Below are positions 8,069-49,300 of a stretch of 64,000 nt of DNA, piece by piece; positions within the stretch are counted from its first letter, which is position 1, and each line of letters starts with the position of its first letter. Source of the stretch: Bugula neritina. Its lineage: Eukaryota; Bryozoa; Gymnolaemata; Cheilostomatida; Bugulidae. Made by a program: the position numbers and the translations under genes. The DNA lies in assembly GCA_964035545.1 (NCBI GenBank), contig OZ037770.1, forward strand, positions 9,512,973-9,576,972, written 5' to 3'. The notes under the pieces are model-generated. The model did not search any database and was not told the origin of the DNA. It worked only from the letters and a program-made list of their open reading frames with translations.

Positions 8069-8282
8069 GGAGAAAGTTGCCAAACATAACTCAAACAGTC
8101 CAACAGTCACTGAGTTCTGTTAAAGTGATATCAGGATCTCTCATTATAAAGAGTAACTTTTCTAATGACTCCACATTTCTCAGTGATCTCTTAATGCTAC
8201 AGAATCTACAGTTTATTCTAGGAGTTGGAGACTGGAGAACTCCACAGATCTGTAATAACTCTACAGTAGTGCATTGTGACAG
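8069..8282 (+). pseudogene. Orphan L2-domain exon of the receptor family
   Basis: A 214-base open exon with an AG acceptor (ATTTTTTAG) and a GT donor (GACAG|GTAG). It has the same length and phase as exon 12 of gene A and of both gene C modules. It encodes the receptor L-domain segment with KVISGSLIIKSNFSN and DWRTPQICNNSTVVHCDR. It is closer to the gene C copies (both LPNITQT) than to gene A exon 12. I find no flanking exons: gypsy elements lie on both sides. It is probably a stranded piece of a deleted receptor copy, though an exon of a gene with unseen neighbours is possible. Confidence 0.75.
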
Positions 8283-8556
8283 GTAGTTATCTATTATTTG
8301 GCAATCGATTTCTTGGCTGGAGGTGTTGGGTTTGAATTTCAGTGAGGGCAAAGCTATTACAGATACAAAGTTATAAAATTACTTATATTATGATGAACCA
8401 GAATGGTGCCAAAAGTGCATAACTTGCTGCATTTATGTATAGAAAACATGCTTCAATTATGAGCGACGAACAATGTTTTGATAAGCTCAGAGGCTTAGTT
8501 TGACTGAAAAACTGTTTATCATTTTCTGCTCATTTAAGTCAGCCAGTTTCTTGCAT

Positions 8557-9992: not shown

Positions 9993-10006
9993 CACAGCAT
10001 AGTTAA
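9215..10006 (+). pseudogene. pol: Protease part of pol, truncated
   Basis: The frame contains the aspartic protease core FLLDSGCNTNLLSRRIFDAL and the flap-like LADGSRIPFYG, then KEDAILGTPLLKRH, all matching copies 1 and 2. It is in the +1 frame relative to the gag-like ORF, whereas copies 1 and 2 use -1, so either the frameshift mode differs or an indel intervened. The last codons after 9992 belong to the adjoining transposon, so the pol sequence ends at about ...CRVN. Confidence 0.75.
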
Positions 10007-17244: not shown

Positions 17245-20200
17245 ATGACCTATAAAACAGTTGTAGTGAGTTTATTCTTTCTGAGCTTTATCACCAAAGT
17301 TCTACATGGCAGTTTGCGAGGTAAATTTAACTGTTGAGCTTACATTATTGAGTCATATGATTGCAAAAATAAACCGTTTTTATTTATTTTTGAATATTCC
17401 TATTTTCAATGACAAGCATTATTTAGTAAACTGTACAGTATTTCCAGACATTGTTGAAAATGAAATATATATATACTGTAAATGTGTGCGTGTAGCGGTC
17501 CCAGTTTTAACTTATGTAAGCCATTTCCTTTTTCCTGTTTCCTATTTCTTTATATTGTATAGATATTTATCAAAGAGTTTGCAGTGGACAGCACGAGAAA
17601 GATACAAGACAATATCCTGGCAGTGCCCTACCAGAAGTACACTATCTGAGAAATGTTTACCAAGGCTGCTATTTTGTCCTTGGAGATCTGTACCTTGGCA
17701 AAAAAATATTTTCAATTGGTAGTTTCCCAAATGTTGTATATCAAATGACTAACATTGTCAGAGTTCAAGGCCAAGTAACAATCAGAGCTACCTCAGGCAC
17801 CGGTATGATTTTAATCACTTTTCTCATTTCTTCAATTTCATTTTAGCAATTTACTAATTTTTTTGCAGTTTTTCCCAGTGATGTTTTAAATCCTGCATCA
17901 TGGCTACTTTCTTAAAAAATAAAATCTACTCTGTTGTAATTCAAATAGTAATATGAGCTACCTTTGCAAATTGGGACTTAGTAAAAGACCAGTTTAATAT
18001 GAAAAAACTGGCTAAAATAATTGAATTATTCCAAAATTAAAGCTGTAGGCAATGGGAATATATTATAGAGAAATATAAAAAATAAGAAATTTATAAGAAT
18101 TTCTGCTTCAGTCTAATAGTGTTATTTTATAAATTGAATTTTTTACAAAACATGGCTAATGACAAGCAAATTTATTGTCATTATAGCCTAGTCTCATTTG
18201 TGTAAAAAAAAGTGTAGCACATAGCTTATGGTTAGGATGCCAGCCTTTTTGGCACTTTTGCGGCAAGTCAAAAACGTCTATAAATTTTGCTACTTCTACC
18301 CACTATTTTATGATTTCTTGTAAATGAAAGTATAGACCAACATGGCATACAAAATAAAGCTTTTCTGTTGTTTGAACCAAAGCATCTCCACAAACAAACT
18401 AGTGTAATTTGGAAGTCATTACCTGCAAAGCATTACATGATATGCAAATCAGTGAGTTTGAGATTAATGGTAGGAAAAAAGGCTTGCAACTGCAGCTTGT
18501 TTAAGACCTACTTTGCATAGATAAAATTAAAAAAAATTGCCAGAAAGACATCTTAGCTTTTTTCCAATAGCTTAACTAAAAGGCTGTACTAGCAGACTTG
18601 CCATGTCATATAGTAAAAAAAACCAGTCACCTGATACTTAAACTCAGCTGACTAATTTGGGATAACAGCAGAAAAAAACCATTGGCAAGCAGTCATGGTT
18701 ACGTCATAAGAGTATATAGTAATACTTTGCATCTATGAAGTTAGTTGTTCACTTATATTATCCAACAAGGAGTTGAAAAGAGGGCTTATAACCAGCTAAT
18801 ACATTGCTAAGAGAAGTTTATAGTCTGTAATGGTAAATAGATGTTATACACTGAAATGTAATTTTTAAGTCCCATAAACTAATATTCTTAGCCAAACTTT
18901 AGTTTGAATGCAATACTATAGGCTCACCTAAATCTGTCACAATTAAAGGCCTTTAAAACTTGCAACATAATTTTTGCTTTAATTTATACATGTTTAAATT
19001 ATCAAGAGCTTCTTAAAAATAGTTAGACTTTGCACAATAAAAAAACTTTGTCTTCAATTTTTATTCGTTGCAGTAAAGGTCTGACAGCTTAGTTTTATAT
19101 TTTCATATTTCTAGGATATGAAAATAAACATACATTCCTAAATAATCTAAAATCAATTGGAGGAGAAGGTTTATATGTTCCCAAAAAGTCTAGTAATGGT
19201 TTAACACTTCGAGATGTTGGAAGAACATTTTTCGACTTGCAGTCTTTGGAAAGTAAGTTATGATAAAGCGGGATTAAATAAACAAAGTCATCATAAAATA
19301 TTTAACAAAAACACTCGTTATAATTATAAGATGTATACTGTTCTTGGTTCAAAGTTTTGATTTTGTTTCTAATTGTTGAAATACACATACTGCAGGCACA
19401 CTGGTTACTTGCACATGTACAGTATAGCACTTTTTTATTGTGAAAAATATTATACCTAAAAGTAAACAAAAAATATGCGATGTGGTTTATTTTTCAGTGT
19501 TTTACTTGTATCAAAACTAATTAAAACGCTGTCACCAAAAATGTTAAATAACTAAGGAAATCAGCTAGTTATAGTAGGTTATCTAATCTTTTATTGTTAA
19601 TTATATTATTATAAATTGACACATTGAAATATTTTGATTAGTTACATAAAAATCTTGAGCTGTCATCATATGTAATTTTAATTTATTTATGTTTCAAATG
19701 TAGTTAAAATTTGTTCAGGCAAAAGTTTTTCAGATACACTATGAAAAAAAAATAATAAAATTTATAGACAGATGAATGTCACATTAAATTAAATCAACTC
19801 ATTTTTATGTAAAGACTATACATTAATTATTACTCTATGCTAACTTTTCGACAGATATAATATGCATTTTGATTTAAAATGTTATTGCTGATGACCACCA
19901 CTGCATTTGATAATAGTCAAATAGTTTTGAAAAACACCTGAAATTTTGAACATAACATATATAAGAAACAAAATTTCAAACAAGATTTATTCAGATGTAT
20001 ATTATTAAATATTTAGAATAAATAATTAATTTATAACTTATTTTAGAGAGATTTTGGATGGCAATAAGCAGTTTAGACTAAGTCATGTCACCAAAGTCAT
20101 TGCTTCATTTTGAGTATTTTTCACCTTTGCTCAAAATGTGCTCAGTCATCATTATCTGCAGTGTGCATTACAGTTCTTTGGTAATTTTACTTATTGACTT

Positions 20201-20507
20201 TGTCCTTTTAAAACCAATATGTACAAACTTATACAACTATAAATTTTTCTTTTAGATTAATTGGTTCTAAACAAGTTCCATACCATTTTAAAACCAAGAA
20301 AAAGTACTTTAAATTATGAAACTATCTCTGTAACCAGTTTACATTCTGTTTCTCATGCCTCATGCATATGATATTATATAGCTGTAGAAAAAGGAAATAT
20401 ATATATAAACTCTGCCAGCTGCATAGCAAACACACTTGACTTGAACCAACTATTAGCAAACTCTTCAACGCAATCTGCAAATGCCCAAAGTCCTCAGTCA
20501 TGCAGCA
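17245..20507 (+). CDS. Gene A exons 1-4: signal peptide and L1 domain
   Basis: Residues 1-25 are a signal peptide. Exon 2 has the ErbB L1 opening pattern: VCSG near the start, then NVYQGCYFVLGDLYL, as in the N-C-E-V-V-L-G-N-L strand of ErbB. Exon 3 carries the middle leucine-rich turns and exon 4 the turn with an unpaired-strand cysteine (INSASCIANTLDL). All four exons end in phase 1. The introns hold no other gene. The 4th intron contains microsatellites and a duplicated repeat. Confidence 0.8.
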
Positions 20508-20566
20508 GTAAGTGCTAACACAACTAACAGTTATTAGTAAATATTTTAGTGAATAAAGCTATATAG

Positions 20567-20645
<79 letters not shown>

Positions 20646-21059
20646 TATATTATATATATATATATATATACCTCAATCTGTGGACAGCCGCTGTTTTGTG
20701 GTTTGTCCCCTCATCAGCACAGAACAGAGTACCATGGCCCACACCTTCGAAATAGTAGAAACTTATGTTTCTACTAAAGCATATTTAAAAGGTGTGTAAA
20801 CTCAAGCCAGAGAGCTCAAGTGACTCTAGGGGTCACCTGTAGGAGTCACGAGCCTTGCAAAATGCTAGCAGCTTGAGTTTGTGACCATAGTGAGAGAGCT
20901 CAATCACTGAATGTCATTGCTGAGCATTAAGTGAGAGCATAATACCTCAATCTGTGAACAGCAGCTGTTTCAGGGTTTGTCCCCTCATCAGCACAAAACA
21001 GAGTACACACACACACACACGCGCACGCGCACGCACACGCACACGCACACACACACATA

Positions 21060-21109
<50 letters not shown>

Positions 21110-24100
21110 TTGTTCAAACAATAACATATTACATTAAAATACTCCAAAAGTTGATTGAGTTTCAAATATTTACAATTAAAAAAATACTGACTAAATTTGG
21201 TTAAATATATGCAATAGGTAACTTTACAGTAAGCAGACCAACAGTGTTATAGCCAGTAAGTAGTAATACATTAAATTAAAATTGTTTGTTCCTCAGTAAT
21301 GCAATACAGGCTTCTGTATAGGGGTGGTGTCCGATTTTTAGATAACTGCGTAGCAGCATGTAATGGCAATTGTTGGGGACCACAACTAGATATTTATTGC
21401 CAGAAACTACCAGTACAATGCCATGCTAGCTGTAGTAATGGTTGTTATGGGTCTGGATCTGCAGAATGCTGTTCTTCTTATTGTAATGGTGGATGTAAAG
21501 GACCTAATGGTGCTAGTTGCTACAAGGTCAGTGGCTGAAACTAATAAATGACAGTAAAAAGTACATAATTTAATGCAACATAGTAATTGCTTTTTATAGA
21601 AAAAGTATTGTATGTGTTATACATGGTCTATTAAAAGGAGCTTGCTATAAATATATTATATTATATCTTATTACATTATATGTTATAAATTTATATTATA
21701 TCATATTGCAATAATTATATTATGACAAATTATATTATATAATATTGTATATTATATAATGTTATAATATATCATAATAAATAATATAACTTAGTATACA
21801 ATATAACATATATTATAAGAATAATGTAATGCAGTATAATACAATGTATAGTTATATAATATTATACTATAAAATATTTTACTGTACAACATTATATTAT
21901 ACTATATTATATTATAATGTACTATATTATATTGTATATAGCAATATTTTGCATTATATTATACTATAATAAAATTATAATATAATGTATTATATACTAT
22001 ATTGTATAACTTTTTTTTATTATATATTATACTATATTACAATGTAATAAATTGTTACAAGAAAAGCATTTTAAATAATGATCAAAGACAAGGATATTTC
22101 AATTGTGTAAACATCACCTCATGAGCTGCAGTTAATATAGAAATCAGCTAGCTATTTTAGTGATGTATAGATCATCACTGTAGCTGTAGTATCACAATAT
22201 GATAATAATATATTCAATCAAGACTATATTTAGTTCATGCGTGTTGTATTCCAATAGAGATGTATATTTATAAAGTCTGAATGAAAAGTGAATGCATAAC
22301 AGAAAGTGCTAGGTTTATAATAGTTTAAAATATTAACTTTTTACCGTAGCCAGAATGGCCGGGTATAAGTAATTAACACAATAGAGAAAAGCATAATGTA
22401 GGCAACATGGCTACAAAAATACTATTATAATAAAGCTGTAGTGATTCAACATATTATGCTTTCCATGGTCTTATACAATGTTCTAACAGCTAAGTCACTA
22501 GTGTGCATGGTAAATCAGTATAAAATTAAGATGTGTTATCTATAAACAATATATTGTGTGGATGTAAAATTGATAGGATATTTAATCAATTTTGGTTAGC
22601 CTAAAAAAACTCATGCAAGTTTATAGTCACTATCACTGTGAAAAACTCTTGATGTAAATGTTTTTTGTTAAACTGAGCTAAAAACTCACTTAAATGAGGC
22701 ACAAGAGCAATTATGACAGGATGTTCTTTTTAATATTATCAATGGCCTTTGTTTTTTTACTGCGAAAATCCTAGACCACGGCTTATACACCTATTGTGCT
22801 TAAGTCTACAGAAGAGTGTTTTTGCTCTTTGAAAAATGAATTGCAATAAAAACTGTTGCTTACTTTTGTATCATTGTTTCTAGTATGAAGGGTGCCCTGC
22901 ATACTCTGATGTTAATGGTAGATGTGTTTCCGACTGCAGCTCATCTCAAACTTCTACCAAATATATTCTTTACAAGAAGTTCTGTGTCTCACAATGTCCA
23001 GGTATGCTCCATAGTTTATGTGATTCTATCTAAACTACTATAATAGGTACATTCATAGTTTTACATCAATATATTATGTAATTGCCTCGTGCAACATAAT
23101 ATTATATTATATTATGTTAAATTATATTATATATTATCATTTTGTGATATTATAGTATAATAATTTAGGATGTGTAGTAGCATATTATATTGTGCAATGT
23201 TATATCATAATAAATAATATTATATACTAGTATTGTAGTATATTTAACATTATTTTATTTTAAACTATATTATATTCTAATAAATTATATTATAATATAA
23301 TATTAGATATAATATTGTGAAATAATTGCCACCACTGGGAATCAAGCCCGAGTCCTCTGGCTTGCAAGCAAGTGTGCTACCATTACACCACGGAGCCTAC
23401 TGGGAAACACAACACTACAAATATGATATTATTTTATATTAAATTATAATATATAATACTATATATAATACAATCTTTTTTTATAGCATAATGTATTATA
23501 TCATATTATAATACTATTCTACATTATAATGTATTATCTTATATTATAATATATTAAATTACAATATGTGATTGTTTGAAATAATCGCAGCTGTTCTGTT
23601 CCATGACTGAATTCTTGTTGTAGCCTCAAGTAGAGGACTAAACTACCCTGGTACTACTATTGGAAATAGCTCTTTCTCAGAGAGTAGCTTTCATTCTGAA
23701 AGATGGTGGACAGTTACGTATCCAAGAACTTTTCTTTTTCACTCAGCTATTCTAGTGACTCGGTTTTCCAATAATCAGTCATGCCTAAGTCAAGCATGTC
23801 TAGGTATACCTACCCAGGCGGTCTATAAACTCTCATCACTTCCTATGACTAATTAGCATTATCACATTGCTTCTAAATCATGATTGGGTAAATTTGAAAA
23901 AACTGACAAATTAGAAATTAATTAAATGTTTTCAAATTTTTTTAGCTAATGCTGGGATGAGAGACATGTATTTCTTGACTGACGGTACAAAATGGATCAG
24001 CCCCTCTGCCTCCATTCCAAATACAAATTCTCTCTATTGGCAGTTGTGCAACTACAAAGCCAGAATGATAAATGAAAAATACTTTTTAAGATGTATTTTT

Positions 24101-27100
24101 GGTGAGAAAGAGAGATTAGTGTACAGGTTTGGAATGAGAGGGATCAGAATGAATAGACTACTTGTCTTTCAACAGATTCATATGAATGGAAACAGTAAGT
24201 GGCGGTTTATAAGCTTCAGTTGCTGCGGATAATAAAAAGCTTGGCACACAACTTTTGACATATTGATAAAAATGTCTTGATTTTTATTTGAGTGCTTAAA
24301 AGATAAAACGTTACAAATATAGCAGCTTATTTTGTGTAGTTTTGTAATGCAACTCCTACTATGAAATGCTTTGTTTTTTTAGCCAGATCAAAAGTACAAA
24401 TATCTTCATCTACAGTAAGTCTATTTCCACACCTATTAGATTCAGTCATCATTCCTCAACCACCTATTTCGTATGCTATGCAAAACAGATCACGTTGGTA
24501 TGGAGTTCACGTGGGAAGAGTGATAGAGTTCTCTCATGCAGTGGTATATACCAGACATGGTACAGACTGTCCTGGTGTCACAAACTGCTGTGAGTATCAT
24601 GTCTGTGCTGGTTTACAAGTTACTAAACTTACTTTACTTGTATTTTATGTGAAAACAGTTAAAAAATTGTTATTTGTTAGCCTAAAGTATTTATTGGAAA
24701 GCATTATAAAATATTAAGATTTATTTTATTGCTACAAACAGCTTTAGTCAAATCTCTAAGAGATGTGAGAAGAAAGTGGTGGATTGATTAAATCAGTATA
24801 ATCACACAGTAGGGCATAATTAAATATAATTTATTTCTAGATATTGAGGCAACTACTAAAGTTACAGAAAAAAGCAGCAGTTACAACTAAAAACAAATAG
24901 TATTGTAAATTTTTGTACATATAATGCACGACATCTTCAAATATATTTGCTAGTAATGCAAATGTATTGGCAAATTGTTGATTGCTACCTCAACAGTAAG
25001 CGATATTTGGTGTTACAGTGTAACATCAGTGTATCTGTTGCCTGCAAAAAACCCACAAAATAACTGTTCAATTTTTTCTTGTATAAAACTTTTTCCCTCA
25101 CCAGGATTCCAACTCAGAACCTTATTATAGGCCTGCTAGCAGGTGTGATACTGTTACATTACAAGGGTCATTGAATGAACTTTACATTACGTTTTGATTT
25201 CAGATGAATACTTCAATGGCACATTAGTGAGTATAGGACCATACTATATACCAAGCCATATTCCTAGCAGGCTACCAGTTAATACCTATAGCCCTCAATG
25301 GCAACAGTGTACTTACTTGAGTAAACCCACGTCAAGTCGATACCTAATTGCGGGATGTGACCGTTTGGCACCATATGTTCGCTACCCACACCTACGTCTG
25401 TTAATGTTTGTTAAAATTCAGAGTTCCCAAACTTTTCATCTCACAGAAGTTGAAATATACCAGTTTCAGAGACCTCAATGTGAGTAAACATAGCAACTAC
25501 CAATGGTTTTGTTAAATTATCCTTATCATTTTTGTGAGTTGTCTTCCCTCTTTCACTTCTTTTGTTTGTTCTATACTATACTTTATGTGAGCCAGTTTTT
25601 GGCTGAAGTTTAGTGGTTTTAGAGTTCAGGAGGCACGATTTGCCCAAATATCGGACAATTTCGACAACGGAACTCCGACATTCATCCAAATTTCAGCCGA
25701 ATATCGAACCAACTTTCTGAAAAAATTTTTTGTTAGTATATAAGAGTCAGTCGATTACCAGCGCTTGCCCAAGACACACCAAGAGAAAAATAAAGAGACT
25801 ATTATTTCAAGTTTACAAAACACTTTTATTTGATCAACACTAATAAGCATGCAGATTGCTACATCTAAGTCCTAAATTTACCTAAAAATATTAGTGTACA
25901 GCAGCTCCAAACAAAAAATAGTAACCTATTGCTGAGACTAAAAAATAAAAATGGTATTGCTATTGGTGTTTTACTTCAGTTCCTTATTACAAGCTGGGTA
26001 ATGAGTGTGTAGAGAGCTGTCCAGATGGATTTCTACCAGATGAACAACTCAATTGTATACAATGTAATGGTGTGTGTGAGAAGTCATGTGACTTTGGTTC
26101 TACAGTATACAATGAACACAACTTTATGTCTCTTCCAAATGATTGCACATATATTTCTGGACATGTGATTCTCGACTTCAACAATTTCAATAGTATGTCT
26201 GAGTAAATTGTTATAATATTATACTTACTTGCATATGCATAACAGGATTGTATTATTATTATATTAGTATTATGATAATCTCACATTAGCAGCAACCACT
26301 TTGTTCAAAATTTTAATGACCCGCTTCAACTCTATTTAATTATTTCTCAATTATCATTTATCAATTAAAAATGTGTTTTGTGGAGAGAAAATTGCTATTC
26401 TACCAGTATACTGCATGGTATCAATTTCTTTTTGATAACTAACTAGCATTGTGTTAGTCTGCGTAGACTTTGAGTTTCTATGTAATAAACATTACAATAT
26501 ATTTTAGTTTAAACAACATACTTTTGCCAAAACCTAAATGAAATTAAGCTGCAGTATTTGTAATGATCTATTAAAAATGATTATGATGTATAAATTGTCA
26601 TAGCAATAATAATATCTATATACACGTACAGCTGCAATATTCATGAGATAACACCAAAAAATTGTAATAATAACACCAACCTTTATGTACATGTAGCTTG
26701 TACATCAAGTTCTTTGCAGTAACTTATTCTTGGTATTCAGTTTGCACTTTGAATTATTAATTTCTTTAAATGGTATTTTGATAGTCAAAAGAAGTTTATG
26801 AATTTAGCTTTGCTCTGCTTCTTATTTTTTCTTTTTTGCAAGTCCGAATATCTACTAAAATATAAATTTGAAAACAACTATTTATAGTTATAAGTATATG
26901 TAGAACTTTTTTTGCATTAAGGTGAGCTTAAAGTATAATGTCTTTGTGCTTTAAATTATAGCAACACACTGGAGAAATATAAGTCAAAGACTGTCTCATT
27001 CATTAAGCTCAATTAAAGTGATTTCAGGATCTCTGGTTATAAAGAGCAAATTCTCTCGTAACTCTGAATTTCTCACTGATCTCTCAATGCTACGGAACTT

Positions 27101-30100
27101 ACAGTTAATTTTAGGAGTTGGCAATTGGAGATCAAGCATACTTTGCAGTAACCCTTCTGCCCTACATTGTGACAGGTATATATAGCTGATTATTTATTTC
27201 CTAAGAACCAGTGTTCTGTTTCTGTCTACTCCAATAAGTTTTTTAGTGTTTATAAAATGAGTTTTGCTAATGCACAAGAGTGGCTTCTTATTAACTATAT
27301 AACCAATAGAAGCAATTCAATAATTTATTTTTAACGATCATAATAATTATTGTAAATGAAGTTAGTCTTATTTATGCCTCTTGCTTGTATTTTTACTTTT
27401 ATTTACTTAACTTTGTGCAATATGTTTTGTACTATCAAATTGCTTAAAAATGTAATGAAAAAAATTTGTTGCAATAATGAAACTGTTGCAAGTAAGCTTA
27501 GTTAGCCATCATTAAAATTAAAATCTTCACATAATTTGTACTTTTTTCAGTAAAGATATGTTGAACCTGCAGTGTAACTAATTTACTTGCATTTAAATCA
27601 TAAAACCATATTGTTACCTAAACGGATCAAGTTTAAAATTGTACCACAAAGTAGTTTTTAAATTTTGATCAGTTGGCAAAAATATAATTAAAACTAAAAC
27701 TAGTAAAAATGATTGAACTTTCAGGAGGTATGCAATAGTTTTGGATATTCCTACCCTCACTCAACTTATATTGGGTAATCTTCAAAGAATTAAAGGATCT
27801 GGTTCAATAAATACTCCCAACCTGTGTCTACCATCTATGGCAAATTTACTCTTTGCATTAAAAGTTACTTCAACGACTAACAACAACATAGTTAGCAACA
27901 CTTGCTCTTCATCAGGTAAGTTGTATGTTCTTAGTTATAAACTATTCAGATTTGTAAGATCTGGTTGCATGACCGCTCTTTAACAAAGTTTTTTTAAATT
28001 AATAATAGACATATATTTCATTAAGTGCTGTTGCCTATCTAAATACTTTTATTTAACTGCTGCTCCTGCAATATAACTAAGTTCAAGTTTTGAAAGTTTA
28101 TATGTTGAAGCCGACTCTTAAAATTAATTTTATTATCTGCATACTGAATATTTCTACAGCTGGAGTATCTTGTCACAGCGGATGTGCTATTGACTGTATT
28201 GGAACTAGCAATACTCAGTGTTTACCATGTCCACCTGGATCTCCTCCAGACTGTAGAAAATGTAGGAACTATGAGTTGACTAATGGAACTATCATCAGTT
28301 GTGGAACATGTCATGATGAATGTCTCGGGAAGTGCAGTGGACCTGTAAGTTATTATGTCTCTATAATTTGCTTTACAACTCATTTCAATACAGCTGATCT
28401 CAAACTTTTAAAAAAGAAATGATGTGTTCAATGGAGCAGTTAATCATGTGTCAGTTAAACTATCTATTATGTATGAAAATGCATCTTAAAAGCAATTTAC
28501 AACTATAGGTAACAAAGCTGCTCAGCTGATAAAAAAAAATTTTCAACTCAAATTCTCTTGCAAAAGTTTCAATTTAGTAAATTGCTATTTGTAGTGGCTT
28601 TTTAATTAGAATGCTAATAAAATATGATAATTTTTGATTAAATTAAAAAAATAATGAAAACGCTTACATAAGGCAAAAACAACATGGGCAGACTTATTTA
28701 TATTATACTAGTATAGTATTTTTAGTAAGGCTTTATTAAAATGAAAAAAACTACTGTTTCACTTGATTTTTTTAAAACGTAGTCATAATTCAAAAAATTG
28801 AAAAATATTTTATGATTTGTTTTCATTTTTATTTTTTCTTGTTGCTGATGCTAGTCAAAGTGCTATGTACTAACATGCTTCCATATTTTTTGCAGTTTTC
28901 ATCATTTTTAATTTGGCAAGAATTTGTTTATTACCATTTATAAGTAATAAACATAATATTGTTTCCTAGTAAACTTTTGGCAAACACACTTAAAACAACA
29001 GAATGAATTTGTTATAAAACTTTTATTTTTTTTGGTTTTTAGCTTGCAACTGATTGCGAAAAGTGCAAAAACTATCAGCTACAAGATCAATGCGTTAGTC
29101 AATGTTTTTCTAATACTACTCCTTCTCTAACAGCCAAAGTCTGTGTGAGTTGCCCTTCAAGAAAATTTCAAGAAACGTGAGAAGTTATGAAGATTCTTTA
29201 GATTATGTTTGTATTTAGATGGCACTTGGAATTTTTATAACTGCTGCATATAACTTTGCTATATACTTTGCCATAACATCACTGTGGCCAATATATACTG
29301 ATGAATTTTGCCATATTTGTTTCTAAATAAGCTTTTTTTGCTTAAAAAGTGTTATGCAGGTATTGCATCCTATAGTTAATATTTTAGAATTGCCTTTTTT
29401 TATCAAGAATTAAAAACTTTTAAATGCTTCTTTTAATAGGGAAAAAGTGAACATGTACAAGTTACAGCTGTCATACGATGGAAATGGTACGCTGGACTGG
29501 TTTACACAGTTTCTACCTGGTTGCAAAAACTCTTGTCAAACGATAAACAATTATTTGCTGGAGATATACAACTCCACTGGTTCTCTGATAGTTAAGCAAC
29601 ACATTGATTCAAGTAAAAAGTCTAATTTAATAATTTAGTGATGACCATGCATAGCGATCATTATTTGATTGATTAAAAAACCGAAACGTTATAAATCTTG
29701 CATAATAATTTAAAGAATAAAGCTGAATTTAGCATTAACTTTTTTTATTTCTAGCAAAAATTGGTTTTGAACATTTAAATGTTTGTTTACGAAAACTGTG
29801 ATCACTTGTATAAAAGTTATACAATTATCTGCATATTCCAGCACTAGCACCAGTAGGCTGATACTATAAGTGACGTTCAAAAATTTGATATGTCATAGAA
29901 TGATAGATTTAAATAACACATTATAAAACATCATTATATTTTGCTCATATTGTTCAAAACCAAATATCTTACAAACTGGGACTGTACGACATAGAAAATA
30001 TAATGTCATTATTAGCAGCAATATAGACAGTGTAAAGAGATTCCTCATTTAAAGTATTGTTAATAGATGGTGAATTTTCTATCAGACTCTGTTTTTATGT

Positions 30101-32269
30101 CTTTTTACAGATAACAACAGTGTGGATCTGAAATACCTGATAAATGAATCTGCTGTGTACGGTTTCATTCTGCTGCTAAATTCCAGTGAATCTGATCTTT
30201 TGGCAACATGTCTTCAAGTACTCTTAAAATTGACAGGTATTTTATGATGCTCAAGTTCTGTAGTCTACATGTACCCAAATATAATAGGCTGAATATTAAG
30301 TTTATATTGTATGTAGTTGTTTGGTTGTCATCCTATATATAGTGGTTTAAAAGAAATTGAATTTTTAAATCTCAAGTCATGCCCGTGATGGACAATTTAT
30401 TTTTATGTTGATGACTCATAAATTTAAAGTTAAAGTGGGAAAATTTTTGCTTCCTAAAACTTAGGCAAAGTGTGTCAAATTTCATGTTTAAAAGTAACCT
30501 GTACTATGTAGTTAAAAAAATAGTCCATATTTCTTTTGAATTAACCTGAATAAATATGAATAAGCATAGCATAATTGGTTTATATATTTCATAAACAGAA
30601 GTAACTACCAATCCATTACCAACAACTACTGTCTCAAATGACCACAAAGACAAAGAAGTTACTGGCAACGTAAAACTCATTACATCTACACAGACTAAGC
30701 TTATAAGTGGACTCATCCCAACAATCATTGGCACATTAATTGCTTTGTTTATGTTGGTAGGTGTTTTACCATTAAGTTCTTGTTGTATATATGATAAAAA
30801 AGTAGTTGGCGGATTATAATTCCAAAGATGCATTCAACGGCAATACTCTTGTTTTATATTATATTTCATATTATTAAGGATTACTGCATGTATAAACTTG
30901 TAAACTTTCAAATTTGAAACCGATTTTCTTATTTTTTGCTAAAACTACCTGCCCAGTGTTTTTCCTCTTAAGTTATTTTAAGTATAGATAAAAAAACATT
31001 CATCAATAAGGAAATCTTTAAGCTATTATATTATAAAACTGTTGCTGACAGTTGGCACGTATATTTATTCTGCATGCAAAGAAACAAAGAAAGCTATTAT
31101 TAAATTAAAAAAAATCAAGCGGTTCATAGTCGATGTTCCTGTGAGAAACCCCTGATGGAAAGGGTTGATGTCAAAGTGGGCTAAAGACTTATTTAAATGA
31201 ATCACAGGAGCAAATATGACTGGATGCTCTTCTTAATACACCAATGACCTTTGTCTGAGTTTGAACCCATGACCTCCTGTTTACTAGGCAAACGTTCTAA
31301 CCTCTAGAACACGGCTGTTTCATTATTAATAAATTGTGGAAGCTAAATAAACTAAAAAATGTTTCTCAGGCTCTAAACTTTTAATAAATTTTATTTGCTA
31401 AATCAGAATGCACTATATAATATATATACATAGTTGTAAAAAGAAACGCTTTTTAGCTTTAGTAGCATGTGATGATGCTGGTGAGGACTTTAGATTCTTC
31501 AAAGTTTTATGTCGCTGTTTAGTAAAATGCTCTCATGCGGAAATTGTAGGTCGGGATTTCAACTCTTGGCTATATACGGTTTCGTAAAAAGAAAAGCATA
31601 TCAGCAGATCTAAAGAGTAAATCAAATCTAAAGAGTAAATCAGATATAAGGAGTAAAACCAGCAGCAAGCAAATGGGTGATTTACAAACAAACACAGATA
31701 GCATGTCAAATATAAAGGAAGAAGAAAATGATGAAAATAGCATAAACAGCAACCAAGAAAATAATTTCCAGGAAGCCAGTGAGGTAAATACAGAAAATTT
31801 GTCTTCACTAAATAAAACAGGATCAAAAATGAACAAGTTTGGTCAGAGCAAAAGAGTTGCACATCATGCAGGTGATACTAAGACAAAAGCTGCTCCATCT
31901 GCTAATAAAATGGCTGCAGCTGTAAAACTACTCGGTCAAAAGGCATCAAGAAACAATTATAAGAGAGTGAAACCTCTAAGCCAGAACGCAGTAGATTTAG
32001 TAAATGTTTCTGGTGCCTTAAACCAGTTTATGGGAAAACTCAAAACTAAGCAAAAACAGTATGGCGAAGCAGAAAAAATACCTTCTGGAAACAAGATTAA
32101 TCCAACTGCTGAAGCGGTAGCTCAAATGTCTGACAATAACGTTACAACAACCAAAATGAACTATAAACCAAATAAAAATGTTATAAGAACGACTAATGAT
32201 AAAAAAGGTGGGCGAACTAAGGTCAAGGTGAAAAAGAAAATTAAAGGTAAAAAACATAAAAAACAATGA
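17245..32269 (+). CDS. Gene A: kinase-less ErbB-like receptor with two fucolectin-like domains (19 exons)
   Basis: Exons: 17245-17320, 17563-17802, 19115-19252, 20388-20507, 21297-21526, 22884-23001, 23624-23803, 23946-24194, 24383-24589, 25204-25479, 25980-26192, 26962-27175, 27725-27915, 28160-28344, 29043-29176, 29440-29612, 30111-30236, 30599-30756, 31550-32269. All introns are GT-AG, every junction keeps phase, and the total is 3,948 bases (1,315 residues plus stop). The start is chosen because it opens a signal peptide (MTYKTVVVSLFFLSF). Domain order matches ErbB receptors (L1, furin-like CR1, L2, CR2, membrane span). Two galactose-binding-like domains interrupt CR1, and no kinase follows the membrane span. 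It is likely a plasma-membrane glycoprotein with many N-x-S/T sites. Ligand and function are unknown. The exon model is mine, from splice signals and homology between copies; it needs RNA support. Confidence 0.82.
20571..20670. repeat. (TA)n microsatellite
   Basis: About 100 bases of alternating T and A with one interruption near 20640. It lies in intron 4 of gene A and directly precedes the first copy of the repeat at 20671. Confidence 0.95.
20671..21003 (+). repeat. Duplicated ~60-base repeat flanked by microsatellites
   Basis: CCTCAATCTGTG...CAGC begins two copies, at 20671-20732 and 20943-21003. Both continue through TTTGTCCCCTCATCAGCACA to ACAGAGTAC. They are 272 bases apart, the first preceded by (TA)n and the second followed by (CA)n. 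This looks like part of a repeat element with microsatellite-prone ends. Confidence 0.75.
21004..21107. repeat. Compound (CA/CG)n-(TA)n microsatellite
   Basis: A run of CA with several CG steps (21004-21056) passes into (TA)n to 21107. It is in intron 4 of gene A. Confidence 0.95.
21297..23001 (+). CDS. Gene A exons 5-6: first part of furin-like Cys-rich region CR1
   Basis: Exon 5 has densely spaced cysteines in the ErbB CR1 order: CVAACNGNCWGP, then CQKLPVQCHASCSNGCYG, then CCSSYCNGGCKGP. Exon 6 continues with YEGCP and ends CVSQCPG. In ErbB receptors this segment flows straight into the next Cys module; here that module comes only in exon 11, after the inserted domains. Confidence 0.82.
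21640..22060. repeat. Low-complexity TATTA-rich DNA in intron 5
   Basis: Degenerate TATTATA and ATATAAT steps over about 400 bases with no strict period. A similar block lies at 23090-23570 in intron 6. Confidence 0.7.
22618..22792 (-). repeat. SINE, V-like family, in intron 5
   Basis: On the minus strand it begins GCCGTGGTCTAGGATTTTCG and carries AATTGCTCTTGTGCCTCAT and the family tail with GTGATAGTGACTATAAAC. It is more diverged than the copy at 14153. Confidence 0.65.
23326..23400 (-). repeat. tRNA-derived SINE or tRNA relic in intron 6
   Basis: The minus strand reads GGCTCCGTGGTGTAATGG, then GCTTGCAAGC and a B-box-like GGGCTTGATTCCCAG, trailed by CAATTATTTCAC. It matches the pair at 57981-58285 in layout. 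Mismatches in the acceptor stem argue against a working tRNA. Confidence 0.5.
23624..25479 (+). CDS. Gene A exons 7-10: two fucolectin/F5/8C-like domains inserted in CR1
   Basis: Exons 7+8 (23624-23803, 23946-24194) and 9+10 (24383-24589, 25204-25479) each encode a domain of about 145-160 residues. Both show W-x-V...R-x-F-x-H-A-x-x-V-x-T-R...C near the middle (exon 7 WWTVTYPRTFLFHSAILVTR; exon 9 WYGVHVGRVIEFSHAVVYTR), as in the WWxVDLG...V-x-I-x-NR-x-x-C core of FTP/F5/8C domains. The second ends FHLTEVEIYQF, the classic L-x-x-x-EVEVYG terminal strand. Such domains usually bind sugars or lipids outside the cell. Each pair starts and ends in phase 1. The sugar-binding residues of true fucolectins cannot be confirmed by eye. 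The first copy is the more diverged. Confidence 0.72.
25100..25165 (-). repeat. tRNA-like relic in intron 9
   Basis: Minus strand: CACACCTGCTAGCAGGCC then a B-box-like GAGTTGGAATCCTGG. It is like the other tRNA-derived copies but lacks a clear AATTATTT tail. Confidence 0.4.
25980..27915 (+). CDS. Gene A exons 11-13: end of CR1 and L2 domain
   Basis: Exon 11 resumes the Cys-rich pattern (CVESCPDGF, CIQCNGVCEKSCDFG) and enters L2 (CTYISGHVILDF, as in the C-x-x-I-x-G-x-L strand of ErbB L2). Exon 12 has VISGSLVIKSKF and LGVGNWRSSILC. Exon 13 has the closing turn NTPNLCLPS. Exon lengths (213, 214, 191) equal those in gene C module 2. The sequence is more diverged from gene C than the exons further 3', which lie in the inverted duplication. 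Confidence 0.83.
28160..30236 (+). CDS. Gene A exons 14-17: second Cys-rich region and juxtamembrane domain
   Basis: Exon 14 has CR2 (SCHSGCAIDCIGTSNTQCLP and CGTCHDECLGKCSGP) and exon 15 adds CEKCKNYQLQDQCVSQC and CVSCPS. This second Cys-rich region after L2 is what separates ErbB from insulin-receptor layout. Exons 16-17 encode a conserved segment of about 100 residues (MYKLQLSYDGNGTLDWFTQF, two close cysteines, NNYLLEIYN). I do not recognise it; it may be a small beta-fold. Exon 17 leads to the membrane-proximal stalk. Confidence 0.8.
30599..32269 (+). CDS. Gene A exons 18-19: membrane span and lysine-rich cytoplasmic tail
   Basis: Exon 18 has a Thr-rich stalk and the start of the membrane segment (LISGLIPTIIGTLIALFML). 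Exon 19 (31550-32269) completes it with GYIRFRKKK, a stop-transfer signal. The tail of about 230 residues is rich in K, N, S and E and ends in a strongly basic run (VKVKKKIKGKKHKKQ). There is no kinase: no glycine loop, HRD or DFG. A 6-residue repeat (KSDLKS-like) lies just inside the membrane. Gene C has the same tail with 12 substitutions over 198 aligned residues plus extra repeat units. Confidence 0.82.
31118..31320 (-). repeat. SINE, V-like family, inside the inverted-duplication arm
   Basis: Minus strand: tRNA-like head AGCCGTGTTCTAGAGGTTAG, B-box-like GGGTTCAAACTC, core AAGAGCATCCAGTCATATTT and tail TTTCTCACAGGAACATCGAC. The matching copy at 51670-51885 is in the other arm, so the insertion predates the duplication. 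Confidence 0.8.
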
Positions 32270-36479: not shown

Positions 36480-36534
36480 CTGGTGGCAGCGGTGGGATTC
36501 CACTTAATACAAATGCCCCTAGCCAGGGAGTAAG

Positions 36535-37404
36535 ATGGCCGACAAAGTCGTCGACGCGCCCCGACAGGAGCCAGCAGCAATAGAGGAAGATCACATAGGC
36601 GGCCCAGCGCTGCCTATGGACAGGTACCACTTGCGGGCTCCCATCTTCTCAGGAGAAGAAGATGTGGAGCAATTCATCACTGAGTTCAGTGATGTGGCGG
36701 ACATCTGCGGATGGCCGAACAGGGTTACTCTGATCCAGCTGCGGTTGTGTCTGACAGGGCCGGCTAAACCCTATGGGATAAGCCAAAATGTCGGTGACAT
36801 AGTTGAAGCAATACGAGCTAGGTTTGGATTAACCGCTCGAGATGCTCGCGTGCAACTGCAGAGTCTTAGGAGAAATCCTAAGACCAATATGCGAGAGCAC
36901 GCCACCGTAGTCGAATGACTGGCACAAGTTGCTTACAGCGACTTGCCTGCCGACGGTCGACAGAGCCTGGCACTGGATGCATTCCTCCAGTCTATTAACA
37001 ACCTCGGTCTGAAACAGCATCTGCTGGTGGCCGAAGTTGAGACTATGGAGAGAGCTCTAAGACTTTGGAATGCCTATTTCCAAGCCGACAGTGCAAGTCG
37101 ACCTGGTGCGACAGTACAGCAGGTCGAGGCAGACGACGTGTCGACGTCGCCAGCGAAGACAGCTGTACAGGTCGCAGCGGCAGCAGCAGACGAATCTAGC
37201 TTAACCACGAGCTTGATTCGAGAACTGCTAGCCGAGATCAGGCAACTGCGCCAGCAGGCGACAGCCGAGAGACCCAAGAGGTCGTCGGTAGCTGTCGACG
37301 ACAGGTGCGGCCCCGTATGCTGGGGCTGTGGTAGTGGTGGGCACTTCCTGCAAAGTTGCCCCCGCGGCAGTGGGAGGCGGTTAAACAGCGATGGCCCACG
37401 GTAA
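36535..37404 (+). pseudogene. gag: gag of gypsy copy 2
   Basis: Starts MADKVVDAPRQEP after a short leader. The N-terminal half has the capsid-like EEDVEQFITEFSDV and ARFGLTARDARVQLQSLR. A TGA at 36916-36918 splits the frame where copy 1 has CGA at bases 1-3. The C-terminal half ends with the zinc knuckle CWGCGSGGHFLQSC. It overlaps pol at the frameshift signal. Confidence 0.88.
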
Positions 37405-42524: not shown

Positions 42525-43783
42525 ATAGCATAGGTTTAATTAAATGAGACTTGTTTTATTTCAGATTTGAACATTTGATAACTTTATTTTTATAGCTGTC
42601 CCCAACGGTCGATGAACATATAAATCTTAATGATCGAATGACTGCATAAAATCCACATAACTATAGAAATCATTAAATTTTTCTTGTATCTTTCCTTTGT
42701 TTGCTAGCATGACACTGAGTGTGAGGAATGTAAAAACTATTGGTTAAAAGGTCAGTGTGTAAACCAATGTCCTCCAAACACAACTGCTTCTCAAACAAGC
42801 AAAATCTGCGTAACTTGTTCATCAAGTGGAAGTCAAAAAAACGTGAGCTTATATAAGCATCTAACTTTGCGTATTAATATAGTAATGATTAGATTATACA
42901 TAAACAACTTAAACACGGTACTATCTTGTTTATTGCTCTATTTTCATGCAGTAATGAACTTTTATCAGACTAAATAATTGCACTCACGAGTTAAGGATTA
43001 CATAAATTAATTTAATTGACCAATTTAAAGAAATGGTTTTGTAGTTTAATAGACTAAAAAAAGAAAACATGTTTACCCATGCCCACACGAAAACTATGTT
43101 GACTTTGCAGCAATGACTTACTTTTAACAGAAATGGTCATTTTTAGAACCTTATCGTTGTAGGATTAAAGAAAAGATGTACAAGTTACAATTGTCATATT
43201 ATGATGGAAATGGTACGCTGGACTGGTTTACACAGTTTCTACCTGGTTGTACAAACTTATGTCAAACGATAAACAATTATCTGCTAGAAATATACAACTC
43301 CACTGGTTCTCTGATAGTTAAGCAACACATTGATTCAAGTAAGAGTTGTTTGATATAATATTTCTTACTTATTGCAAATAAAAATTATAAAAATGCTCAA
43401 AATTATAAAAAAAAATTCATGTAGGCATACATAGATGCTGCAAGAATAAATTTGTTCAATTCTGTGAAAGCGTGTCAAATTGATAAAAATTTCCAATGCA
43501 TTTTTTAACAAAATTCACTTAGGTTTCTATGTAATTTCACACAAACACTATTCATTTTTGACAAAAGTGTACATGTGCAAAGAAAAATAAATGAATATCT
43601 AAAAACAACTTCACTCAGATAACTTTAATTGTGAATTTTTTCTATCTCTTTCAGTTTCTAGTATAGTTAGCAAAAGTATGTGATGCATAATAGCTTATTA
43701 GCAATGATGATCATAATGGCAATGATAACACCAGAAGTGCTATTATATTAACAGCATAACAATTATTTTTAAGAGAAGAGTAA

Positions 43784-46366
43784 TTACACAGTTAGTTTAA
43801 GGTCACACTTTTCATTTTCTGGCTCTTTGCCAGGTGCTTTATGTTCTATATGAACAATGTTCCACTGATAGCTCGAACAGGTTGAATGTCACAGGAACAA
43901 AAAAAATATGAAAAGATAAAGAAACTTATGTTCTCCAATATACTTTTTTATTTTTTTCAAAAACCAATTCATGTTTAAGTTATAGCTTGTTGAAAAACAT
44001 AGTCCCCCTTCCACATTCTTTTCAATTTATACGCTCCTGACTTGTTATTGCGTCTCAATATGCCTTGTATTTGAGTGCTCGTTAGTCTCGCTTCACTAAC
44101 TTTGCCTATACTTCACAAGTGCCAGTGCTGCTGGCTCAAAAGCTAAATGTTAAAAACTGTCAGCTAAAACCCAATCTTGTATTCCTAGGTTGGTTGGCCT
44201 AAATAAAACAATAGTCAAATCATGATTTCATGTTTTAAAAATTTACTCTATTTTAACCTGCTGCCTAGCTATAGTTCTATTTTTGATGTATAATTACAAA
44301 ATTTGTGATACATTTTTTTGGCAACCATGTGATTTATAAAATGCAGTAATGGTACTTATAATATTATATTATTATCATTATAATATATTATATAGTATTA
44401 TGTGTGTTTTTATTATACTGCATAATATCTATTTTATTATTGTTGTTGTGCAAACAAGTGCAATTAACCTAGTTTTCAAAATGTACCTCTAAATTATCAG
44501 AATATCAGTTTAGATATGTTCATGCTTTGTAAGGTAAACCTAAAAAAAGAGGCTGTATTCCCAAAGTAAAGGGTGTTGAACTATGAACTATATTAGATTA
44601 GCCACTCTGCTACCAAGTGCATCAGTATAATATTATATGAATAGCTCTGATGCTTTGTCTCCGGTGGCTGGCTGCGATATGATAACTTGGCCAACTTCCA
44701 AGAGTTTAAAATTGGCGCAATTATTCAAGAGGTTACATACTGCACAGAGCTAGCAGTGATAGTAACCTTGCTATTGGCAGTACTTATTACAACTGCCAGC
44801 ATATAAGCTGCATTGTAGAATGCCGTTGGGGCAGGCTAGTAAAACCAAATTCTGCTCTCTAATATACCTTAGACACAATGCAGCAACACAATTTTTAGTT
44901 TCAAATTACATTTGCCACCCTTACATGAGCTGTGGGCTTCATAAAGATTCATATGATTAGAGATTTATGCTATAGGCCCTATCTGTGCTAGTGTATGATG
45001 AAAAGAACACACCATTGTCAAAGTTAACTTCAAGTATGTTGTTTTCCAGAAACTCAGTAATGTCCATTTATCTCTCGAATACAAATACTTATGTAATACC
45101 ATACAGTTTAAGTTTTATTTTAGAGCACATCTGCAAACTCTACAATAAGAGCTTGCTTTACCAGTCTATTTCAGACCTGTTTTTGTAGCTAATAATACGC
45201 AAGCTACTTATTTTTAAACTTTTGGGTTATTTGTTCAAAACCATTAGCTTTGCTAGTAACCCGAGACTATTGCAACAGTTGACTGCTATCAACATGAATT
45301 GACCGCCTAATAATTATAACCCTTTTGCGCGCGAAATATTTATGTAATGATAGTTACTCATATAGTGCGCGTCTTATTAACGATGACTGCGTGGTCTAGA
45401 GGTTAGAGGCGTCAGCGAGGAGTTGGTTGGTCATGGTTCAACCCTGTTTTGTCGCAATTTTTTTTGTCAACTTATGCAAATCCTACGCATGTATAATAAA
45501 TATGGCTATAATTGTAAAGTTTTTTTTAACTTTTGTTCAACAGTAAGACAACATACATGCATAATAATTAGATGCTGAACACTGGGCTAAACCTTAAATT
45601 GATCTTATAAAATACAATGTACTTAAAATAATCATATGTGAATTAGAGAAACTGAAAGTACACCTGCTGCTCTATAGACAGACCTTTACTGACAAGACTG
45701 CAAAGTGAAGTGATTTAGCTGAAATTAACTCTGCCAAACAAACAAAGAATTATGTTGTGCTGAGGCATTTTCAATATATTATTGTAACATAGTGAGATGA
45801 TTCAGCTAAGTGCTAATGTAAAACAGGGAACATTATCTTGGCAGAAATCCAATAGATTGCCAATTTGTGCGAGAGGGTACTATATGTTATTGTGATAGCG
45901 CAGAGCGGCAAACGTACTAGGAATGTTATAATTAGTCACAGGAGCGTAGCTAGAACCACCATATGAAGAATTTAGAAAATTGCAGTGAAACTTGCAAAAT
46001 GGTGTATGTTTTTACCAAATTGTGAAGAGCATAAACAGAATTTCAAAAAACAAAGAAAGTATATTAGAGAAAACATATCAAGGAATGTCAAGTTTAACTT
46101 TTAGACTTTATAAAATGAATCCCCTGTGCTACAGCAGTGGAACATGGAGGGTGTAAAATTTTACTTATTATGCAACAACTTTCTCAGAAAATTTTTTATT
46201 GAAAAATTAAAAAAGTATATGAAAGAGGAATGCATGAGCTATCTTTTCATGTAAAATTTGTTAATGTGAGACAAAAACTGTTCGAGCTATCCCCTGGAAA
46301 CCGTTTATATATAACATAAAGCAGTGCTTGAATCTGGAAAGTAATGACCTTAAACTAACTGTGTAA
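43784..46366 (+). mobile_element. CACAG-family inverted-repeat transposon, 2.6 kb, in a gene B intron
   Basis: The 22-base ends are exact inverted repeats: the left contains ACACAGTTAGTTTAAGGTCA and the right is its reverse complement (46345-46366). Taking CACAG as the terminus, TA flanks both sides. The interior has no transposase frame that I can see. A tRNA-like segment lies at 45380-45465. Confidence 0.8.
45380..45465 (+). repeat. tRNA-like SINE head
   Basis: GACTGCGTGGTCTAGAGGTT followed by a B-box-like GGTTCAACCCTG, as in the heads of the SINEs at 14153 and 51670. No V-like core follows. Confidence 0.5.
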
Positions 46367-49300
46367 GTGTGTAAGAATTTGTGTTTTTTTCCCAATCTTA
46401 TTTTTATGCACTAAAATAGCGGTTAGAATGATATATTTCTTTCGAGCAATGTTTTACAGATAACAACAGTGTGGATCTGAAATACCTGATAGATGAATCT
46501 GCTGTGTACAGTTTTGTTCTGTCGCTGAATTCCAGTAAAACCGATCATTTGGCAACATGTCTTCAAGACATGTTTTTCAATTTTACAGGTATACTTTGCA
46601 ATGCTTACACTCTATAGTCTACATGTCAACAATGTGGTCTAAAAGTTTTAATAAATGCAATATGTATTTATGAGATTGTCATTTCATGTTTGATTTTTTA
46701 AAAATGATGTTTTTGATTTTACCGACATAAAAATTGTGTTGCCTAAATATTTTTATTATTATAATTGTCTTTGTATGCGGAATGCTAATCTCTAAAAGTC
46801 TTGCAAAAAATTATGTGTGTTCGTGATTGATAGTAAATTTAAATTTACTACTTGTAGAGCAGAATATCATTCTTAAAACGTTTTTCAGAGTCAACCGGCA
46901 TTTGAATAAATTATTGAAAAAATTTCTTTTAGTGCCACTTAGGTCATAGCTAGATCTACATGCAGTGAAATTTTGCAGGCAAACGTGTCTACATGCACTA
47001 GAACAAAATGTCTTGCTGCATAGCAATATATTAATAATATTTTTATATTATCATTATTCAATATTGTTTATTGAACACAAAGAAAAATGATTATATCCAA
47101 ATGTATAATTTGCTACTATTTGTCATGTATAATGAATAGTTTTATTTCAAAATTATAAAATTACCCTGGCTGCTTCCATCAATTTGCAAATAATTGAAAT
47201 AAAAATATAAAATTTGACTTGCTAAAATTTTTTAGTGAATTTAACCACTATACACGAGAAAGTTTTTACGTGCTTTTTAGTCTGCTAACTATAAGCATGC
47301 ACACTTTTGTTAGCAGTCTGTGCAGAAATCTGCTACCTAGTCCTTGTCCTGAGCCTTAGTAAAAAGTAAATATAATTATGGAAATTCTGTCTAAGCACAT
47401 ATAAACCAACCAGCTAATTTAAACAAATTATGTACTGCTTTTAATAAGTTAATAAACACCAAGATTTATAATACTCATGGTTTGAAATATTTAAACATTT
47501 ATTTTATTTTTGACAAAATATATTATGTTTAACTTTTATCAAAATAAATTTGTTTAAATATTTTTTTCGAAGACTAGCTTTGCAATCATCATTCTAATAT
47601 ATTAGCTAAAATCAAATAAATTAAGTTAAGGCATGTATTATTTTATAAAAGCCATAGATTCATAGCTGTGTACAATAACTAACTCTGATAATGTATTATT
47701 ATGTACTTTAATTATTGGTCAACCAAAAATGAATATACACATTCAGTTATCTATAACTCAACAAAATACCACACATCTATTAACCACTAAAACAGTTAAA
47801 CAAACAAATCGTGTTTCTATATCAAACAATCACACAAGTTTGTAACCTAGTTAATTTCAAGGTAGATATTATTTACCACAGGTCCACTATTAACACCCTC
47901 AACTCTACAGCAGAATACAGATGAAAGGTTTGGTAGAAAAAAAGAGGTCACTGAAAAGACTGACATTAATAGCCCTAAAGACAACAGTAGATTGTTCAGA
48001 GCTGCTCTCATATTGAGCTTGTTGGTTGCCTTTGCTGTGCTGGTAAGAGTTCAAGTGTTATATTGTAAACTGCATAGTGAAATTTTTTGTTGTGACAAAA
48101 CTGAAATCTAACAAGAAGGATATATCCAATTTTTTTAAAGCAATACCTCGTTTGCCATTGGATGTCTGTGAGAAATAGAACATATTGAAGTAAAATACAA
48201 TTATCTGATTTTTGATCTAAATCATCAACTCAGTTTGTTCATATAGTGTCTTGTGCATATATATAATGTGAGTTAGTGAGGGAAATCTGCCTGCATTTTT
48301 TTTCAATGAGCACTCATTAAAAAAATTCTCAACTATAGTCACCTGCGTGAAAAATCTGAAAGTGGAGAAACTTTTATACCAAACTTCTATAAGTAGTAAA
48401 TTCTTGATAATTTTAAGAATTTTTAATAAATCCTAAATTTTCTTACATAGGCAAGCAAAAAATGTTTGTGGTGATTTTAGATTGGAATATCAACCATGGG
48501 CTATATACAGTTTGGCAGAAGTAAAGTTATGCCAATGAATAACTCTGCAGTAAAACATGTTTCTAGAGTAAAGATATACACAGTTAGCTTAACTGCAACC
48601 GATGTGCCTACAATATTTGATACCAGAAGTGCAAACACTCCACAGGATATTGAAGAGCCTACAGACACTGAAATACCAGACATAGCAACAGTCAAAACTG
48701 ACCCTAAAGATGACAAAAATGAAGAATCTGCAATCAAGAAAGAAATTGAACCAGTAAATGATTCTACGACTTTAAACCAGTCCAAAGCAAAACAAGATGA
48801 TGTTGAAAGAAAGAAAATTCATTTTAAAACTAAAGATAAAAAAGCATTAAAAAGTTCTTCAAAGAAGTTTAATGCAATAGCCAAGGCACAGAAGAAAAAG
48901 GATTCTAGCAAAAGCGCTCAAATAACAAAATCAAAGTCTATACCCAAAAAGACAGCCTCAACAAAAACTATAACACCTAGTAAGAGTGGGTTCTCAAGCA
49001 AACCAAGGAGTATAAAAGAAAAAGTTAAAGAAAATAAAGCAAATATTACCAAAATAAATAAAAAGAAGTTTTTAAAAAAGATTACAGCCATACGTCCACT
49101 TAGTCAGTAGTATTATTGCCCCATTGCTAATCTAGACTGAATTGTACTCAATGTGTTGTATGTGATGCAATTTGATGTACTGAATTTTCTTAAAGCTAGA
49201 GATATATAAGTCAAAAGGCATGTTGTATATTTCTTATGCTACATTATTTAAAGCCTTTTTAGAGCTTTTATAAGCTTATTTATTGTATTTTTTAAATCCA

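Follow-up and report, generated by a model that had tools for sequence, protein, structure and literature searches.

The window, a stretch of 64,000 nucleotides from chromosome 6 of Bugula neritina (positions 9512973-9576972), holds on its plus strand, at 17245-32269, a gene that we call gene A. Rebuilt from the raw sequence, its 19 exons join in frame, 18 of 18 introns are of the GT-AG type with compatible phases, and the coding sequence of 3954 nt, from the ATG at 17245 to the TGA ending at 32269, encodes 1317 amino acids and a stop codon, which agrees with the complete gene of 19 in-phase exons proposed in an earlier note on this DNA. The coordinates of its exons and of the features around it are collected in Table 1.

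Table 1. Features of gene A and of its surroundings, in window coordinates
Feature	Position	Strand	Basis or remark
Isolated exon-12-like copy (L2) of the gene A family	8069..8282	+	exon-wise modelling
Exon 1, start codon and signal peptide	17245..17320	+	gene model; identical protein sequence in neighbours C and F
Exons 2-4, L1 domain	17563-17802, 19115-19252, 20382-20507	+	gene model; residues 31-292 match ErbB4
Exons 5-6, first part of CR1, shortened arm loop	21297-21526, 22884-23001	+	Furin-like at 211-313
Exons 7-10, 304-aa two-domain insert	23624-23803, 23946-24194, 24383-24589, 25204-25479	+	phase 1 at all junctions
Exons 11-13, first half of the CR1b-L2-CR2-X unit	25980-26192, 26962-27175, 27725-27915	+	gene model
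Exons 14-16, second half of the CR1b-L2-CR2-X unit	28160-28344, 29043-29176, 29440-29612	+	gene model
Switch from C unit-1 type to C unit-4 type	28210..28352	+	informative sites; mixed between 28213 and 28295
Exons 17-18, end of X, stalk and membrane span	30111-30236, 30599-30756	+	gene model, hydropathy
Exon 19, basic tail and stop codon	31550..32269	+	gene model, composition
B, 3' fragment of a G-type paralogue	42711..49110	+	exon-wise modelling; second type of basic tail
Exons of B: 15-like, 16, 17, 18-like, 19	42711-42836, 43163-43338, 46460-46588, 47893-48042, 48481-49110	+	
Neighbour gene C, 3' part	50711..64000	-	whole gene 94605 to 50711, window coordinates

The encoded protein carries an ectodomain of the order L1-CR1-L2-CR2. 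Among the three Pfam profiles that the earlier note had proposed for a check, Furin-like (6.2e-16) and Recep_L_domain (9.5e-12) scored over their cut-offs, but GF_recep_IV, the profile for CR2, remained under its own at 0.0033. The best sequence matches in the PDB were fly EGFR (3.4e-11) and ErbB4 (7.9e-10), in separate alignments that cover L1-CR1 (residues 31-292, ErbB4) and CR1-L2-CR2 (residues 621-907, fly EGFR), so that CR2, although below the cut-off in Pfam, lies inside the fly EGFR alignment. Listed to E 10, Pfam gave four families, none of them fibronectin type III, which in the insulin receptor follows L2; together with the presence of CR2, this rules out a simple insulin-receptor layout, which the earlier note had excluded on account of CR2. 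Its ErbB-type domain order likewise holds; what it overlooked in the layout is a 304-aa insert in CR1, encoded by exons 7-10, and an extra segment, X, encoded by exons 16-17.

Hydropathy shows one hydrophobic stretch at about residues 1058-1089 in addition to the N-terminal signal-peptide region, and a single membrane span, the number claimed previously, is predicted on this basis. The tail behind it comprises 230 amino acids, among them 50 K+R and 20 D+E, with a pI of 10.3. Counted from the sequence letters, the loop between the CxxxC pairs of CR1, which in EGFR is the dimerisation arm, has 15 aa in gene A and 10 aa in its homologue P0001, against 26 aa in the nematode EGFR P0002 and 11 aa in the molluscan insulin receptor P0003. 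By sequence, gene A thus appears to lack an ErbB-type CR1 dimerisation arm, its loop being cut to insulin-receptor length.

A cytoplasmic tyrosine kinase of ErbB type was found in gene A neither by Pfam nor by direct kinase search. When two RTK kinase domains were compared with the 244 kb around the gene, the best match had an E of 0.89 and three positive-control loci were recovered, in accordance with the kinase-less form described before; a kinase exon further downstream of exon 18 is rejected on the same search. A search for the kinase family, in which 132 of 907 candidates were scored, gave no chromosome 6 match among the matches listed. Three ErbB-type loci with EGFR-like kinases were located on chromosomes 4, 5 and 1, whose kinases score at best 100, 93 and 95 bits, respectively, against the EGFR kinase and 68, 69 and 67 bits against the insulin-receptor kinase. 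At the loci on chromosomes 5 and 1, an L1 exon that is ErbB-like by PDB search lies about 9-10 kb from the kinase, and the chromosome 4 locus was judged to be ErbB-type from weaker, unlabelled matches; from this proximity we infer that ectodomain exons and kinase form one gene at each of the three loci. Small contigs such as C58, C159 and C28 gave protein kinase matches rich in in-frame TAA/TAG and with almost no TGA, as expected from a cobiont with a ciliate-type code.

The insert spans residues from about 310 to 613 (912 nt, 304 aa) within the stretch 300-620 that the PDB alignments leave without a match, and it occupies the loop next after the shortened dimerisation-arm loop. Every junction is in phase 1, as is typical of a cassette moved by exon shuffling. 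Comparison of its two halves shows that they are related (hhalign P 1.4e-5, with control values of 0.12 and 0.37 for the halves against an L2 profile), and by this profile comparison the insert is taken to be two diverged copies of one unnamed domain. Searches of Pfam, NCBIfam and the PDB gave only chance-level matches for the insert, and none of the five family members scanned has an F5/8 type C or fucolectin match in Pfam. When compared with three fucolectin domains from fish, the two halves had P values of 0.01 and 0.03 (L2 control 0.27), the alignment behind the 0.03 being out of register in our reading. With two Bugula FTP-type domains added to the fish fucolectins, single halves reached 4.4e-4 and 4.6e-3 (L2 control 0.34) and the pooled halves 2.3e-5, with a probability of 76 over 28 columns. 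In the two best comparisons, the similarity to FTP/F5-8C domains is a weak profile likeness confined to 26-28 columns around the WW motif (WWxV); an E-V-E-V/I-like last strand common to the insert and FTP domains was seen by eye. These comparisons hint at a fucolectin/discoidin-like fold. Elsewhere in the Bugula genome, F5_F8_type_C_2 (FTP-like) exons lie densely packed at 7.6-8.1 Mb on C3 and 0.47-1.32 Mb on C5, and are a possible donor of the inserted cassette.

The earlier note had overlooked that gene A belongs to an array. A tblastn search across 244 kb of chromosome 6 yielded, besides gene A on the plus strand, genes C and F on the minus strand, G on the plus strand and H, which extends past the DNA examined, on the minus strand, as well as fragments. 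These were modelled exon by exon, each exon having AG/GT boundaries, the phase of its gene A counterpart and no stop; low-identity stray matches (one each in C, F and the chromosome 2 relatives K1 and K2) and unmodelled exon matches (exon 5 in G and H, exon 15 in B) were dropped. Gene C comprises 37 exons and 2436 aa and gene F 31 exons and 2077 aa, both reading through without stops at gene A's junctions, which shows only that such exons exist throughout, since the exon finder itself required AG/GT, phase and the absence of a stop. G was modelled without exons 1 and 5, an open exon-5-like stretch being visible with a later acceptor, and its whole frame is therefore outside the readthrough check. 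H was modelled without exons 1 and 5 and the 3' end; read from the A-like acceptor, its exon 5 contains an in-frame stop, so not every copy in the family need be functional.

Exons 11-16 constitute a phase-1-to-phase-1 unit, CR1b-L2-CR2-X, of 366-369 aa with a copy number of one in A, three in F, four in C and six in G, and all 14 of these units are stop-free (H, K1, K2 and the fragments left out). C and F have the same 3' end as A, and G and B keep the order of its 3' exons; upstream of B, the stretch 32.3-42.7 kb yielded no exons 1-14. On the plus strand, gene A is flanked by pieces of a G-type gene, namely exons 16, 11 and 12 at -6896 to 8282 and exons 15-19 at 42711-49110, as if gene A sat inside a broken G-type paralogue. 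The cluster is AT-rich and contains open frames that look retroelement-like (gag/pol type by eye) at window positions 1-4900, 8500-10000 and 36500-41000, the last of which separate gene A from fragment B.

Gene A combines two unit types by recombination. In a comparison that covered 25900-31600, its positions 25924-28351 match unit 1 of gene C at 97.8%, and positions 28018-31600 match unit 4 at 95.5%, with the switch falling in or just past exon 14. The simpler reading is that gene A arose by unit loss from a longer gene, a direction that we infer. Between A and G, exon 14 has a dS of 0.12 against 0.49-1.3 in the other ectodomain segments, which suggests exchange there.

One homologue was P0001, an 861-aa frame that runs uninterrupted on a 2791-base contig and thus has no introns. 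The homologue searches gave P0001 and two kinase-bearing receptors; a transcript of gene A was not found, its search returning P0001 alone with the best 8000 candidates scored, and a search with one repeat unit gave no match among 1038 candidates. P0001 is 40% identical to gene A over L1, CR1, the insert, L2 and CR2, the insert being common to both, and its match begins at residue 60 of A, so P0001 lacks a signal peptide. When matched to the genome in a query set that also contained P0002 and P0003, pieces of P0001 were 49-94% identical to the inverted-duplicate genes K1 and K2 (about C2:31,754,271-31,786,306), with the lowest identities where a match overruns an exon, and P0001 is presumably the transcript of a related species. 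It ends in a hydrophobic segment with no tail, and K2, modelled like K1 without exons 1, 3 and 7, has its stop codon at the corresponding position; in K1 the frame stays open for at least 17 further residues. A tail is accordingly not a general feature of the family, a point that the earlier note had missed. A second cluster on chromosome 2 (30570275-30675264) contains Furin-like and L-domain exons on both strands, with no kinase among the matches listed and with weak similarity to the gene A family in the small parts compared.

Compared with its diverged paralogues G and H, gene A gave dN/dS values of 0.11-0.42 over the 15 ectodomain segments computed, and G compared with H gave 0.24-0.53 over 7 segments, some dS values being saturated and CR1a being taken from exon 6 alone. 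Between A and C, the ratio is 0-0.30 in each segment from CR1a to X, on few changes, and 1.42 in the nearly identical L1, on three changes. Judged from these ratios, the ectodomain of gene A appears to be under constraint, beyond chance. Between A and F, 41 replacement and 9 silent changes were counted in L1+CR1a against 50 and 35 in the remaining ectodomain (Fisher p=0.007), a contrast of few changes in segments that were picked after the data had been seen; the excess may reflect diversifying selection, relaxed constraint or conversion. Among A, C and F, the dN/dS of the A-type tail is 1.1-1.8 (2-3 silent changes), which is indistinguishable from neutral, and of the conserved, basic, non-kinase tail previously proposed, the basic and non-kinase parts stand and the conservation is not confirmed. 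LKSKSD-like six-residue repeats follow one another in this tail in variable number, C and F having more of them than A. The second type of tail, compared between G and the fragment B, has a dN/dS of about 0.32 (17 nonsynonymous changes at 498 sites and 13 synonymous changes at 129 sites, p=0.004) and in this comparison is under constraint.

Taken together, our findings suggest that gene A is probably functional and belongs to a bryozoan family of cell-surface proteins that have an ErbB ectodomain but no kinase, and the best reading of the family, by analogy, is one of lineage-specific, kinase-independent recognition or decoy receptors comparable to the IRLD proteins of Caenorhabditis elegans. 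An ErbB-like outer part whose kinase is replaced by a basic tail probably means extracellular binding without signalling of the EGF-receptor kind. The protein would stand at the cell surface. Its L domains and the two domains of the insert, which may bind carbohydrate, would bind ligands or partner cells; neither dimerisation through the arm nor a kinase of the protein's own would be involved. As a decoy or co-receptor, it might present or sequester EGF-like ligands; alternatively, it might serve directly in recognition or adhesion. The tail would be a membrane-proximal anchor and not an enzyme.

Which of these activities applies can be said only tentatively. One possible role is that of a decoy or co-receptor anchored in the membrane, which would bind EGF/neuregulin-type ligands specifically and dampen the kinase-bearing ErbBs, much as has been proposed for IRLDs with insulin and EGF signalling in nematodes. 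This role is consistent with the retention of ErbB-type L1 and L2, the shortened arm loop, the kinase-bearing ErbB-type loci in the same genome and the IRLD precedent (PMC9262388); ligand capture, however, needs neither the inserted domains nor the three to six L2-CR2 units of the neighbours. A receptor for recognition or adhesion, directed at self/non-self or at microbes and diversified by unequal exchange within the array, is a candidate that we also hold with reserve. The unit numbers of 1, 3, 4 and 6, the exchange in or just past exon 14, the lectin-like hint in the insert and the A-F replacement excess in L1+CR1a point to it, as does the kinase-independent action of ErbB4 in adhesion reported in PMC8257755, but L1 hardly differs between A and C, and the A-F contrast consists of few changes in regions possibly converted. 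The fuller scenario, in which the array would be a recognition locus where an ErbB protein lost its kinase and arm, gained a lectin-like cassette by exon shuffling and diversifies its L2-CR2 units via unequal exchange, is in our estimate improbable. The 2020 Bugula genome paper reports only weak similarities to the known allorecognition gene Alr1 (PMC7576161).

We consider it unlikely that gene A is a recently degenerate copy, the pseudogene-like collapse of a multi-unit gene. Its recombinant structure with internal units missing, its position between G-type fragments (B and the upstream pieces), a tail dN/dS near 1 and the L1 ratio between A and C would fit such a collapse, yet all 19 exons, the splice sites and the frame are intact, and the A-C ratios from CR1a to X are low, on few changes. 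A splicing or assembly artefact, with a kinase exon further on or with units misassembled, is very improbable: no RNA evidence for gene A was found, but no kinase-like stretch lies in the 244 kb, C and F share the 3' end of A, G and B keep the order of its 3' exons, and the long-read HiFi assembly has a reported QV of 53.7 (PMC11480708).

A probably functional, kinase-less ErbB-derived family in a bryozoan would mean that an ErbB ectodomain was freed from its kinase and made into an expandable binding scaffold, in parallel with the nematode IRLD proteins. It provides named loci for asking how EGF-type signalling might be buffered in Bugula and, for a phylum of colonial animals, a candidate array of receptors. 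No paper on bryozoan kinase-less ErbB proteins was among the matches listed from open PubMed Central papers.

Among known systems, the ErbB/EGFR receptor tyrosine kinases (fly EGFR, ErbB4) resemble gene A in the order and sequence of L1, CR1, L2 and CR2 and in the single membrane span. Gene A differs from them in its missing kinase, its 15-aa arm loop in place of 26 aa, the 304-aa CR1 insert, the X segment and the basic tail, and its array neighbours differ in their repeat units. With the insulin receptor and with DAF-2B, a truncated insulin receptor form without a kinase (PMC9262388), it shares an L-CR-L ectodomain and a short loop at the arm position, and with DAF-2B also the lack of a kinase; unlike the insulin receptor, it has CR2 and no fibronectin type III domains. 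The closest comparison is with the IRLD family of C. elegans, which, as described in PMC9262388, comprises 68 genes, many of them adjacent and some in hyper-divergent regions, that encode kinase-less relatives of EGFR/InsR-type ectodomains; a role in modifying insulin and EGF signalling has been proposed for them, and two members, hpa-1 and hpa-2 (HPA-1 and HPA-2), are reported to modify EGF signalling. Given a family of this size, kinase-less relatives of such receptors are not without precedent. The gene A family has the features by which PMC9262388 describes IRLD proteins, namely L domains, no kinase and an expanded, clustered family, although no IRLD protein was among the matches listed in our homologue searches and the two were compared by description. 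It differs from IRLD in its full ErbB layout with both cysteine-rich regions, its two-domain cassette and its tandem units. The gene A family is thus a known type, that of kinase-less ErbB/insulin-receptor-type ectodomain proteins, in a new architecture.
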